A stretch of DNA of 64,000 nucleotides from Owenia fusiformis (lineage: Eukaryota > Annelida > Polychaeta > Sabellida > Oweniidae): the NCBI GenBank assembly GCA_903813345.2, contig CAIIXF020000004.1, forward strand, positions 19,564,477 to 19,628,476, in the 5' to 3' direction. The position numbers were made by a program, and so were the translations under genes. The notes beneath the pieces were generated by a model. It had not been told where the DNA came from. It ran no database searches and saw only the letters and a program-made list of their open reading frames with translations. This document shows, piece by piece, positions 16,793 through 61,331 of this stretch. Positions within the stretch are counted from its first letter, which is position 1; every line of letters begins with the position of its first letter.

Positions 16793-17002
16793 ATGGCTGC
16801 AATTCCTCAACAAGTGGCAGTGCCTACAGTGCTGAGTTTAGGTAGTAACGTCAAAGATTCAAGATGGCTGACATTAGAAGTCTGCCGGGAATTTCAGAGG
16901 ACAAAATGTAGTCGTAGCTCTGAAGAATGTAAATTTGCCCACCCACCCCCACATGTAGAGGTTACCCAAGGACGTGTAACTTGCTGTTTTGATGCCATAA
17001 AG
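16793..17002 (+). CDS. mbl: Muscleblind coding exon 1: ZnF1 and first half of ZnF2
   Basis: The exon encodes the N-terminal 70 residues of a muscleblind-like protein, a nuclear and cytoplasmic RNA-binding regulator of alternative splicing. ZnF1 is CX7CX6CX3H (C31, C39, C46, H50) in the context [13 protein letters not shown]...CKFAHP, diagnostic of the family. ZnF2 begins at C65 in CFDAIK and is completed by exon 2a or 2b. The start ATG has a good context (AAAATGG) and an in-frame stop nine bases upstream. The exon ends AAAG followed by GTACAT at 17003, phase 0, exactly where vertebrate MBNL coding exon 1 ends (after FDSLK). This is the homologue of the Drosophila mbl exon that forms abundant circular RNA. 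Confidence 0.95.
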
Positions 17003-45480: not shown

Positions 45481-46146
45481 CCCAGGAACATCAAGTATCT
45501 CGCTAGATTTATTCATATTGAGAAATTCTACATAAAGAAACAATTCATGGAAATACTAGAAGGTGAAAGAAATAGCCCCGATTCTTCATAAATGTGTCAG
45601 CCAGCAGTAAACTGACTTAGTATCATCTTGAAGCATTCTGTCATTGTATAAGATTACATGAATAAAAGTTTTAAGTTTGAGACTACCTAAAGATTTATGG
45701 TATTTTTATTGGGTATTTTTCAGTGATCGATACCAGACTGAATGGGCTTTGAGTAATCGAGCAAACTTGATTTATTTTGAGTTTGTCAGAGATTTGGGTT
45801 GTTGATTATTAAGAAACCAGTCATGATCCTCCTGTTTTGATCCAATAGACAGGAGAGCTTTCTGTTCAAAGCTGCCTTTTTAAAAAAACGCAATCTTGGG
45901 TTGTTCCCGGGGTCCCGAGTGATATTTTGAGCTATAATGAGAGAATAAACAATAATAAACAATTGGGCAAAATGCTATGCAAAAATACACACGATAAAGG
46001 TGTTATTATGATGATTGGTCCTTTGATTGCTCGGATGATTGGCCGGCGATTTAATTTTCGAAGATTTCTAAATTTAGAATGTCACGTGACTAGCTGATTA
46101 GAAGTTTAGATAAGATCAGTTAAATTAATCCCGCTAATAAGTGATG

Positions 46147-46890
46147 TCGGGTAGTACACTGGGAGAACGCTCGCCTAGAACGCGGATGTCCCGGGTTCGA
46201 ATCCCTGCCTGATTTTAGAGCCTATGGGATCGACCAGGCGTCCGTCCGTTGGTCCGTCCGTTGGTCCGTCCGTCCGTCCGTTGGTCCGTCCGTCCGTCCG
46301 TCCGTCCGTCAACATTGGCCGCACAAATTAAAACTGCTATTCGGATTGAGTCATATCCACATTCATTTTATGCATATCCATAATGCCTATTTGACCTATC
46401 ATCGCCATTTCCCAAGTTGGCCCGGTTTCCGAGAAATTGCGGATTTTGACGTCATTTTCAAGAAACTTTCTCATGTATAAAGTCAATGGCAGGTTTTGTG
46501 ATTTACAAGTTTCTCAAAGTTTGCATTATACTTGATCATTTCTTGCAATGAATTACATCATTACTAGATTTAAGCATTCCCTACATATTGCTCAATATAT
46601 GTCAGCATCAAATTTTTACCGTTTTTGAGATATTTGACGTCAAAAAAACAGTAAAAATAAGTTATTTTTCAACTTGCTTCAATTTGACCAAATTTTTTTA
46701 AATTAGTAAAATTTTCAAGGTCAAAGGTCATCAAACTAGGTCACACAACTGTGCTTTCTAAGTTTCTCAAAGTTCGAGACTACAAATCCAAATCAATATT
46801 TTAGTTTGAAAGTCAGTACATTTATATACATTCCTCTGAAGGTTCCAAACTGTGTGAGCACAGGACCATGGGTCCTTCATTTTCTAATTA
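46147..46890 (+). mobile_element. SINE-like repeat with tRNA-derived head
   Basis: The head (46147-46212) has a perfect Pol III B box GGTTCGAATCC, an A-box-like TAGTACACTGGGAG, and termini TCGGG/CCTGA that can pair as a partial acceptor stem. The anticodon region (CGCTCGCCTAGAACGCGG) resembles heads of tRNA-derived SINEs. It is followed by GATCGACCAGGC, a (TCCG)n run and a body with AAGGTCAAAGGTCATCAAAC and GAGCACAGGACCATGGGTCC. The right limit is approximate. A functional tRNA is unlikely because the anticodon stem is imperfect and the body is attached. Confidence 0.65.
46235..46311. repeat. (GTCC)n microsatellite interrupted by GTTG
   Basis: Tetranucleotide TCCG/GTCC units with four TTGG interruptions, directly after the tRNA-like head. 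Confidence 0.95.
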
Positions 46891-48205: not shown

Positions 48206-48945
48206 AGTACTAATCTTAAACTAGGATGTTGACTTAATATTGCAAAGAGCATGGCTGTAATCTTGTTGGCTTGATTGAGTTATTTTGAAATCTGCACAGT
48301 TCCAGGTATATATTATGCATTTGTTTATTGTCTATTGAAATATACAACTACTGGAATAGATGTGTTCAGTTAGGGGTTTTCCCGACATTGTGTCTTCTTC
48401 AGGGGACAGAAGTTCTATATATAATTAACAATGAATCTGTTGAAATGTTTAATATTCCGAAAATATGGCACTTACAATTTCATGGTCCAAAATTTTCTTT
48501 CCATTTTGCATGCGCTGCAACATTTATAAAAATGCAAGCTAGTATAATGTAAATCCAGGCTGCTTTTAATATGTGTCCAATTATTGTGCGGAAATGAAAA
48601 AAATGCTGGATTTTTATTTTGTTGATTGCCTTGCATGCATGCTGCTCTCCTTTTTGAAACCACATGAAAGTTACTGTCAGATATCAATATTAAATGTGAA
48701 ATTATACATCCATGTTTCCATATCAAAATATATGCTCAACTCTGATTGAATCTGACATAAATCATGAGGTCTCTGTAAGGAATTAATTTTTTGTTTGCAG
48801 TTTAATTGTAGGCTATTGCGCAATCATTATAATTCATATAGTTGCTGCCTGCTCTTAGTCTAGTTGCTGCCACGTAAGCGAGACCTGACAAAATGGCCGA
48901 TCTTTCCATGGTTACCAACATGTTTTGTTTGTTTGTCTCTTATAG

Positions 48946-49113
48946 GGCAAGTGCCAAAGAAAGGAACCCCCGTGTAAATACCTTCACCCCCCTCAACATC
49001 TACGAGAACAGATTCTACAAAATGGCCGAAACAATCTGATACTAAAAAACCTCCAAATGAACGCCATGCCTGTCCCAGGTTTTTCACCTCTCCTCCCCGG
49101 CTCAGTCCCACTG
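48946..49113 (+). CDS. mbl: Muscleblind exon 2a: second half of ZnF2 plus linker (variant a)
   Basis: Acceptor TTTGTCTCTTATAG (AG 48944-48945), donor CTG|GTAGGTACC; 168 nt, phase 0 to 0, 56 residues. It opens GKCQRKEPPCKYLHPPQHLR, which completes ZnF2 (C73, C80, H84 in protein numbering with exon 1) as CX7CX6CX3H; this CX6C spacing is as in Drosophila mbl, whereas vertebrates have CX4C. After the shared region LQNGRNNLILKNLQ the tail is proline-rich (MNAMPVPGFSPLLPGSVPL). The zinc finger pair ZnF1/2 binds YGCU-type RNA. It is followed after only 66 bp by homologous exon 2b, so the two are probably alternatives. Confidence 0.93.
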
Positions 49114-49179
49114 GTAGGTACCCAGCATGCTTTGCTCTTATGACATGCCGTTGAATGTCACATTGTTTTATTTTGCTAG
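49114..49179 (+). promoter_or_regulatory. mbl: 66-bp spacer between tandem exons 2a and 2b
   Basis: Bounded by GTAGGTACCC and TTTATTTTGCTAG. At 66 bp, the 2a donor and a 2b branch point would be very close, which can sterically block splicing of 2a to 2b and enforce a choice. It contains four YGCY words on the + strand (GCATGCTTTGCTC, CATGCC, TTTGCTAG), a dense set for its length and possible muscleblind autoregulatory sites. Confidence 0.6.
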
Positions 49180-49350
49180 GGAAAATGCCAGCGTAAAGAA
49201 CCACCATGTAAATATCTTCACCCTCCGCAACATTTACGCGAACAAGTTTTACAAAGTGGCAAGAATAATCTGATTATGAAGAACCTTCAACAACAAAGCG
49301 TAATGGCATCGTATCTTCAACCGCAGATCGGCCTACAGGGTGCCACAGTG
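49180..49350 (+). CDS. mbl: Muscleblind exon 2b: second half of ZnF2 plus linker (variant b)
   Basis: Acceptor TTTTATTTTGCTAG (AG 49178-49179), donor GTG|GTAGGTATA; 171 nt, phase 0 to 0, 57 residues. The first 22 residues are identical to exon 2a, yet I count 14 synonymous and no amino-acid-changing differences over those 66 nt: an old duplication under strong protein-level constraint. The next segment differs conservatively (VLQSGKNNLIMKNLQ), then the tail is unrelated (QQSVMASYLQPQIGLQGATV). Spliced after 2a it would give a half-finger without its first cysteine; spliced directly to exon 1 it restores ZnF2. That structure supports mutually exclusive use. Confidence 0.92.
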
Positions 49351-52300
49351 GTAGGTATATTACCCATAATGCCACACATTCCTCCTTCCATCTTGGATGT
49401 GGGATATCTCTACCATCAATGTTTGTGTCATCTTTCTTAGACTAATGCTCCATTTTCAGCATTTCTCAGTTGACATCTTCCACAAGCCACAAGTCACACA
49501 TCCATTTATTTTTCATTTTTTCTGTTGTTTAGTTTATACTCGTATATATTAACACATAAAATAATGAGATGTTAGCATACATAGATGATGTTTTTATGCA
49601 TGTTGTAATGAATAAGATCTACAATGTTATAGTTGTTATAATTTTTCATTAATCTGAAGTTTAAAATGTCATATTTTGGTCATACATTTAAACTTTTTAA
49701 AACATTTTTTCAACTCTATTTGTTCTCAAGAAGTTCCTGAAGTGGATTTTTCTATATTGAAGTGAATATCATTTTGCAGTCATATCCAAGTTTACTAAAG
49801 TTCTCTCTATTCTACTCTGATATATTTATCATTTTTAAAATGATGACCTTTTGTGGCATTTTATTATTGGATCACCATATATCTTGATAAGCTCTTGTTT
49901 GATACTAATGCCACCTAATGAGATGAGAAATGTATTAGCTGCAAGATAAATCATTGAGTGGTTCACTGACCAAATGGGATCTCATCACATGAGAAACATC
50001 TGATCAATGTGAATTAAGTTCCTTTTTCAATTCCAAGTTGTTTCTGACCCCAAACTCCCTCTGCACTTCAGTATATCCCCTTCTCCCCATGCTCAGTTTA
50101 CAATTTCATTACTTTAATACGTCTGTCCCTACATGTACACTATTCATGTTGTGAATTATCCCCCTGCTCATACAACTCAGTTATTATATTCTCGCCAAAG
50201 ACGCCAGATTGCACTCCTTAATATCATAAAAACTAGAGGAATATTGAGAAATTACACATATAAAAATCAGAAAAATATGTCACAGATAATAGGTGAGGTC
50301 TAATATAAAATGTATCACATTTCAACTTATTATTAGTCATGAGCTCAACTTTAGGATTACTCTACTGCTCTGGTATTACTTTATTCTGCACTAGATTATC
50401 ATAAATCAAGGTGTTGTCTTGTAAATTATGGGAAATATAGCAAAATGTTTGTGCACTACCCCAGGCACTACCTCTGTACAGGGATAAAATGTGACAATCA
50501 GGTAGATTTCAAAGTTTAATGTTCATAAAGATCTAGAGAGTTAGAACCATAACTGGTGAAATGACTCAATTATAAAGGAGTGAGATTCTATTGTCAGTTT
50601 GATTTATAAAAAAGCTAAAAAGCCTGTTAAAATGGAGTAAAAAGTTTGCATGAACTTGTTCATTAGATACAGTACCAAGTTGAATTGTGCTCTTTGGCGA
50701 GAATATGGTATTTTATTTTCCTTTCTGTCTTGGAACTTCATCCTCAATAGAACTTTAAATAACACGACCCAATCATTTCCCTGATTTACATATGTACATT
50801 GTTACTATCTGGCCCCATTGTTTACTTCATATGGAATTACTTGTGAAATCTGTTGGAGCTCTTATATGTTGGTGCTATAGTTTTATTTTATATTTTATTT
50901 AGTTCTAGGTAATAGCTCAATCAGTTATGAAGTAAAATTATCACTTCCCAAATCATCCATGATTCCAAATTTCTAAAATAACGATGTAAAACAACTTTTC
51001 AACTTAGCCATATTATCTAGTAACCTTCATTTTCTTATCCCAGAACATTTTCAACATTTTCCATAGAACACAAAACATATTTTACTTCATAGCTGGTGTA
51101 TATACATGTATATTGTCATTGTTGTGTGTGCACTCCTTCATTTAGTGTTACAAAATATATATTACATACTATTATGTATTGTATATAAACTGTATATGTG
51201 TTATATATAGTTGTGAACTTAATCAGGGGTCCTTAACAGACACTTTGGAAAGGTTGAGAGTCCTTTAGTATGACATTATTATATCAATGGTTATAACAAT
51301 TGATTTCTGAATTCGTAACTTTATGAGATTCTGTTAATGGCCTGATGATTGTATCTCAATGAAGGACTGCACTACTGTACTGTAAATGTGTGCTTCACTG
51401 CAGGGGCATAGATGTCTACTTGTGTTCTCTTCATATACTGGGCCTGCAGGTGCTCCAATGGGATTAATGGTTCATCTATTATTTGCAAATTATATAGCTT
51501 CATGAACATAACATTGAATCTTTACAGAAAAAGACATGTTCATGAATTTTCATTTTGCACAAAAATGGGATGTCAATTGTCAATATTGTATCAGAATAAT
51601 CCATCATTGTAAAAACAAATTCTATTCCTTGCAAAAATTATGAAGTCAACTATTTTATATCTGTGTCTGCAAAGTATGAAGAAATCTTATTTGCCTGGCA
51701 TACATGCTGAATATATAAGATCAAGTCCAATCCAAGTCAAAGTATATCTGACCTTATGAGGTCAGGGACCAATGCAAAAGTTCAACGTAGGAGAGCTAAC
51801 TAAATTCTGATAGTTAATTGCCAGATACCCTCCCCCTCCCCTTGTTAACTAAATATGAGAAATGTTGATCTTCTCGGCATTTTCAAAAGTGCATCCAAAT
51901 GCACTTGAGTTCATCATATTGGTCTGTTCAGGTAACTTGAAGGGTATTTCTTGCACTTTCATATATTCTTTGAGTTTTGAGCTTTTTTTAAACCCCAGTC
52001 CTGCTGTGTTGACAGTCTTACATGTGAATGAAACAGCTGACTGTCCCCAGGTGACTGTCCCATATGGCTGTCTGAGGACTGTCCACTGCTTGTGCCTGAG
52101 GTTGAGGATTGATAATTGACCTTAAAATCGTGGTTATTAGAACCACACCACCATGGACTGAACGTGGTTTTAGATTAACAATATTTCATTAATTTTGTTC
52201 AATCATATTTTATTGATTTCCAAATTTCAGTTGCTTTGTGAGACGGTTTTACCTTTCTTACCCACTCCAAACGAGTCACTCCATAAATTGTTCACTAGTC

Positions 52301-61133: not shown

Positions 61134-61331
61134 GCACACCATCCGTCTTTCATCCAGGCAGCAGCTGTACACCCTTACATGCAACAGACTTTACAACAAA
61201 TGACATCACTACCACCAGCCAATGAGGCTCCAGTACTACACACCCAAGCCGCCAATATTATCCCCACATCACAAGCTGCTGTTGCTGCCGCTGCGCATGC
61301 CACTAAAGTTACACGGGCAGATCGGCTTGAG
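61134..61331 (+). CDS. mbl: Muscleblind linker exon ending at the second zinc finger boundary
   Basis: Acceptor CCTGTCATTACAG (AG 61132-61133), donor GAG|GTAGGT; 198 nt, phase 0 to 0, 66 residues. It begins AHHPSFIQAAAVHPYM, is rich in Ala, Pro and Gln (QQTLQQM, SQAAVAAAAHA) and ends KVTRADRLE, equivalent to the vertebrate MBNL sequence ...AAAAQKLMRTDRLE that immediately precedes ZnF3 (VCREYQRG). It therefore corresponds to vertebrate coding exon 3. Splicing onward either to ZnF3/4 exons outside the window or to the terminal exon at 63548 keeps frame. Confidence 0.93.

Follow-up and report, generated by a model that had tools for sequence, protein, structure and literature searches.

The muscleblind gene in the window analysed here (a stretch of 64,000 nt from Owenia fusiformis) carries two adjacent exons, 2a and 2b, which represent an ancient tandem exon duplicate and are most likely spliced as mutually exclusive exons. 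The positions of the exons and related features are given in Table 1.

The gene is muscleblind, with an MBNL-type N-terminal tandem CCCH pair and, downstream, a second tandem pair and KR-motif exons. When exons 1 and 2a were joined, phmmer gave 1.9e-32 against MBNL1 (5u6h) and 5.5e-31 against MBNL2 (2rpp), and the Pfam family zf-CCCH_10 (PF22628) scored 93.9 bits with 2a and 92.2 bits with 2b. The coding part of exon 1 ends with ...CFDAIK at the donor AAG/gtacat in phase 0, and the intron after it is 31,943 nt long. The frame was open through exon 1, exon 2a, the linker exon, and the ZnF3-4 exon (274 residues), as well as through the same series with 2b in place of 2a (275 residues). The linker exon was the next one recognised after 2b, and a short intervening exon could have been overlooked. 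KR-motif stretches (PKKRPLEAT, LYKRPA) were located at about 71.4 and 74.4 kb in the extended window numbering. Based on strand, order, and phase (the last up to the ZnF3-4 exon), we infer that the ZnF3-4, KR-motif, and other exons are spliced into one transcript. An Rfam scan of the window at gathering thresholds gave a single match, a tRNA, which lies in the large intron (46145-46215, plus strand; 31.3 bits against a threshold of 29).

Table 1 Positions of the muscleblind exons and related features (window numbering unless otherwise indicated).
Feature	Position	Strand	Remarks
Muscleblind exon 1, coding part	16793-17002	+	ATG, ZnF1, first ZnF2 cysteine
Five YGCY motifs, possible regulatory element	48843-48871	+	75-103 nt before the 2a acceptor
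Exon 2a, 56 aa	48946-49113	+	C, C, H of ZnF2; post-finger stretch; first linker variant
66-nt intron between 2a and 2b	49114-49179	+	Four YGCY; candidate branch points A27, A30, A57 (motif scan) and A47 in GTCAC (by eye)
Exon 2b, 57 aa	49180-49350	+	Same half-finger as 2a; second linker variant
Linker exon, 66 aa, AHHPSF...ADRLE	61134-61331	+	Phase 0-0; accepts 2a or 2b in frame
ZnF3-4 exon	L001:895-1140 (outside the window)		Linker exon runs into it in frame
Exon 5a, 79 nt	81940-82018, extended window numbering (L002:7940-8018)	same as muscleblind	CCCH, phase 0-1
Exon 5b, 85 nt	82364-82448, extended window numbering (L002:8364-8448)	same as muscleblind	CCCH, phase 0-1
Exon 6, with stop	85541-85662, extended window numbering (L003:1541-1662)	same as muscleblind	CCCH

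Exon 2a (168 nt) is bordered by the acceptor ...tcttatag/GGC and the donor CTG/gtaggt, and exon 2b (171 nt) by ...ttttgctag/GGA and GTG/gtaggt. Both exons are in phase 0-0, the two donors (gtaggta) are near-identical, both acceptors are normal, and GT-AG is kept throughout; the borders and lengths thus agreed with the original prediction. The deduced peptides were GKCQRKEPPCKYLHPPQHLREQILQNGRNNLILKNLQMNAMPVPGFSPLLPGSVPL for 2a and GKCQRKEPPCKYLHPPQHLREQVLQSGKNNLIMKNLQQQSVMASYLQPQIGLQGATV for 2b. The first zinc-binding cysteine of ZnF2 comes from exon 1 and the remaining C, C, and H from either exon 2 copy, and the spliced frames confirmed the expectation that both exons complete the same half of the finger. 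Recounting gave the values previously claimed for residues 1-22, which are all identical with 14 of the 66 nucleotides different, each synonymously. The further claim that the tails diverge completely after residue 22 proved to be wrong: residues 23-37 are also alike, so that 33 of the first 37 residues are identical and only I/V, N/S, R/K, and L/M are exchanged, whereas the likeness is lost from residue 38 on, in the linker (64% over the alignment).

No third copy of exon 2 was detected by tblastn of the window, and protein searches placed 2a and 2b each at one site in the 498-Mb genome of the species, in which N stretches could hide copies. The same genome has an intronless 444-residue open frame with three CCCH fingers (G000:C7:13314401-13316800, L009), which we take to resemble ZC3H10. 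Three above-cut-off matches to Eryth_link_C (haemoglobin linker domain), an annelid family, were observed within 15 kb (G000:C6:27033687-27048438) and support an annelid source of the DNA.

In the proposed splicing scheme, the donor of exon 1 at 17002 would be spliced to the acceptor at 48946 or to that at 49180, and whichever copy is used would then be joined to the linker exon at 61134. The resulting isoforms would possess a nearly identical finger pair and would exchange the linker between this pair and ZnF3-4. The use of one copy at a time is favoured by the same phase, similar length, and intact splice sites of the two exons, by the short intron between them, and by the three-ligand half-finger formed if they are joined. 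Indeed, the frame of the 2a-2b join was open, with no frameshift, and contained a half-finger of three ligands; as foreseen by the original prediction, the half-finger of 2b was deprived of its first cysteine. Such a product would bear an extra incomplete CCH half-finger. Because 168 and 171 are both multiples of 3, joint inclusion would escape nonsense-mediated decay.

A length of about 66 nt is no bar to intron splicing in many animals. When the 66-nt intron was compared with 65 gaps between consecutive exons of Myosin_head and Cpn60_TCP1 genes in the same genome, none of the gaps was as short (smallest raw gap, 94 nt; smallest overlap-adjusted gap, 126 nt; median, 318 nt). The pairs were neighbours consecutive in the profile, contig and strand being disregarded when they were matched by position; one or two gaps may be breaks inside a single open frame instead of introns. 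The sample consisted of 152 exon matches, 92 from Myosin_head (65 of the 210 candidates scored) and 60 from Cpn60_TCP1. An insertion of about 22 codons was bridged by none of the 152 matches, the largest excesses being 95, 57, and then 12 codons. Among the candidate branch points in the 66-nt intron, A57 is located 9 nt from the acceptor, and the plausible predicted ones (A27, A30, and A47) are all less than 50 nt from the donor. In the available part of a human survey, a distance from donor to branch point below 50 bp was the criterion of steric interference, and the potential for such interference was described in just 57 clusters (9%) (PMC5740500). With no plausible branch point at least 50 nt from the donor, the 2a-2b join would be sterically hindered. 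The original prediction had stated that the intron is short enough to hinder joining and that the two exons are probably mutually exclusive. The intron proved unusually short relative to the 65 gaps and the sequence tests favoured one copy at a time, whereas hindrance itself is suggested by predicted branch points and exclusivity itself by the sequence.

Docking and selector RNA pairing was also considered and rejected. Complementarity of the 66-nt intron to 48346-48945 or 49351-50000 extended over at most 8 nt in a single run, and the duplex energies (-25.0 and -22.8) were close to the average for 200 random segments (-22.3, sd 6.0).

The two exons might be alternative without being strictly exclusive, that is, used with a tissue bias and with minor double-skip or double-include forms, perhaps as an off switch. 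We consider this unlikely: although many highly similar neighbouring exons are not spliced exclusively according to the part of the human survey at hand (PMC5740500), and although a double skip stays in frame (all phases are 0) and would destroy ZnF2, the 66-nt intron is short and the double skip loses three zinc ligands. Routine inclusion of both exons, which would place a second copy of the half-finger and a longer linker after ZnF2, is quite improbable. The open 2a-2b frame and the exon lengths, both multiples of 3, would permit it, but the second half-finger would be without its first cysteine, none of the 65 gauged gaps is so short, and the strict conservation of a partnerless half-finger would be left unexplained.

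Next to the identity of the peptides, the codons of the two copies have been randomised. Over the 22 identical residues, 13 of 22 codons differ, where independent draws would give 13.6 with uniform codon choice and 12.8 with the codon usage of the gene; over 37 codons, 18 of the 33 same-residue codons differ, against 20.5 and 19.6, respectively (the usage was computed from the five exons of this muscleblind gene). The dN/dS between 2a and 2b, which had been proposed together with the original prediction, was determined in part. The dN by NG86 was 0.019 over 22 codons, a value owed to the two-step path of a single arginine codon, all residues being identical, and 0.071 over 37 codons, whereas pS was 0.975 and 0.87, respectively, which is too high for dS to be estimated. 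Randomised synonymous codons beneath 22 unchanged residues show that the duplication is old and that selection has acted on the protein of each copy, in agreement with the earlier claim. This combination is the strongest argument for the use of both copies, and it argues against a duplicate of recent origin and against an echo of the assembly. That one copy is dying or unused is accordingly very improbable; none of the 22 finger residues has changed despite the randomised codons, and neither a stop nor a lost splice site is present. An assembly artefact or haplotype duplication, of which near-identical adjoining segments are a usual pattern, is scarcely conceivable, as 14 of 66 bases differ under an identical peptide and the intron flanks of 2a and 2b are no more alike than background (an equal match to the intron is given by 25.5% of random segments). 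Taken together, these findings indicate that 2a and 2b are a real, old, and constrained exon pair, most likely in mutually exclusive use.

An assignment of the ancestral copy from the tails was tried and rejected. PVPxFS in 2a and a looser Q-rich stretch in 2b resembled what we take to be the letters of the human linker, and shuffled sequences matched as well (P 0.43 and 0.07, respectively).

MBNL is described as a splicing regulator with YGCY as its target in the accessible portion of PMC3880588, and that of PMC10773944 likewise gives YGCY as an MBNL-bound motif and reports that muscleblind acts on its own transcript in vertebrates and worms. Muscleblind itself may set the choice between 2a and 2b through the YGCY motifs upstream of 2a and in the 66-nt intron. 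Five YGCY lie within 150 nt upstream of 2a, a count attained or exceeded in 2.9% of 150-nt windows, and the four in the 66-nt intron are a number reached by 0.76% of 66-nt windows. When the three flanks were pooled, ten YGCY were counted in 266 nt, and 38 of 9056 shifted placements reached that number. The enrichment fades over 300 nt upstream of 2a (7.7%), and no excess was observed downstream of 2b, with two motifs in 100 nt (17% of windows) and two in 200 nt (41%). Six other coding exons had 0-2 YGCY per 100-nt flank; among these flanks, the one before exon 1 and the one after exon 6 are not introns. Because the place was picked before the YGCY test, we put self-regulation forward as a tentative proposal. 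An RBFOX-type element was rejected as a candidate; TGCATG occurs three times within 500 nt upstream of 2a (reached by 0.65% of windows), yet three copies lie upstream of the ZnF3-4 exon as well.

When the sequence was extended 30 kb past the window, three further CCCH exons were found (5a, 5b, and 6). The best match of 5a joined to 6 was ZnF3-4 of MBNL1 (3.6e-14). Exons 5a and 5b have VCRDFKAGQC, R, and CKYVH in common, and the 25 codons compared contained six synonymous differences and seven residue changes. Either 5a or 5b joins exon 6 in frame, whereas joining 5a to 5b shifts the frame into stops. A third muscleblind-type finger pair thus apparently lies in the same muscleblind gene, as judged from strand, order, and likeness; alternatively, 5a, 5b, and 6 may constitute a separate neighbouring gene. 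If they belong to muscleblind, the gene would have two duplicated exon pairs, and in the second, 5a and 5b, the frame itself would enforce the choice. It is conceivable, though doubtful, that the product is a six-finger muscleblind with two independent exon switches, 2a/2b for the linker and 5a/5b for the fifth-finger core, at least the first of which would be self-set via YGCY. One gene could then give at least four RNA-binding architectures; vertebrates use three genes.

Muscleblind proteins rank among the main switches of splicing during development, and in myotonic dystrophy they become sequestered. The 2a/2b choice would tune a protein that itself controls splicing. If both isoforms occur, they would have the same first finger pair with different linkers and would provide a ready-made test of the inter-tandem linker, the loss of which strongly lowers RNA affinity according to the part of a review at hand (PMC13044900). 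The duplication itself could be dated as old independently of RNA data.

To our knowledge, fly and vertebrate muscleblind have a single exon at the place of exon 2. The available part of PMC3315501 describes muscleblind intron positions as highly conserved between insects and vertebrates. By the same partial account, the first finger pair of Drosophila muscleblind is likewise split by a huge intron (75 kb, against 31.9 kb here), and the ZnF2 spacing found here is two residues longer than that of vertebrates, as in insects (PMC3315501). No duplication of exon 2 and no third pair of fingers is mentioned in the accounts of insect and vertebrate muscleblind in the portions at hand of PMC3315501, PMC5041496, and PMC13044900, and the main text of the fly paper (PMC3315501) contains no word beginning with 'duplicat-'. 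Among the literature matches listed, which comprised titles and the starts of abstracts with subscription journals largely outside, no report of the 2a/2b pair or of a third finger pair in muscleblind was found, and neither 'muscleblind' nor 'splicing' occurs in the main text of the Owenia genome paper (PMC9977687). Likewise, when a prokaryote genome collection was scanned twice for stray animal contigs, no relative was encoded by the 13 and 85 pattern-matching stretches.

Regulation of muscleblind by its own product has a precedent in the localisation exon of vertebrate MBNL and exon 7 of C. elegans, where muscleblind acts on its own pre-mRNA through YGCY sites and where, for the worm exon, FOX-1 and GCAUG are involved in co-regulation, as far as the excerpted text goes (PMC10773944). 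Those self-regulated exons are described there as cassette exons for nuclear localisation (PMC10773944), whereas 2a and 2b are duplicates of each other and encode parts of the finger and linker. Tandem mutually exclusive exons are also present in the muscle myosin heavy chain of annelids, with seven clusters in Capitella in the part of PMC3912159 at hand; in this case the product is a motor protein and the clusters are more numerous than in muscleblind. In the present genome, one Myosin_head stretch (about positions 27-81) is matched 12 times in tandem on the minus strand at G000:C9:37986009-37994334, two of the matches having an internal stop, and this array is a large candidate set of mutually exclusive myosin heavy chain exons.

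The closest parallel found is the pair of exons 3 and Ab in U2AF1 (U2AF35) of vertebrates. U2AF1 is a CCCH zinc-finger protein. Like 2a and 2b, its exons are a splicing factor's own conserved, tandem-duplicated exclusive pair, of 67 nt each, and the available portion of the report states that having both in or both out leads to stop codons and decay (PMC5224494); in contrast, muscleblind with 2a and 2b together stays in frame, and the protein families differ. Since joint inclusion is in frame, the exclusion of one copy by the other must be steric or regulated. If the present reading is true, muscleblind would join U2AF1 as a splicing factor in whose own gene a duplicated exon is exchanged.
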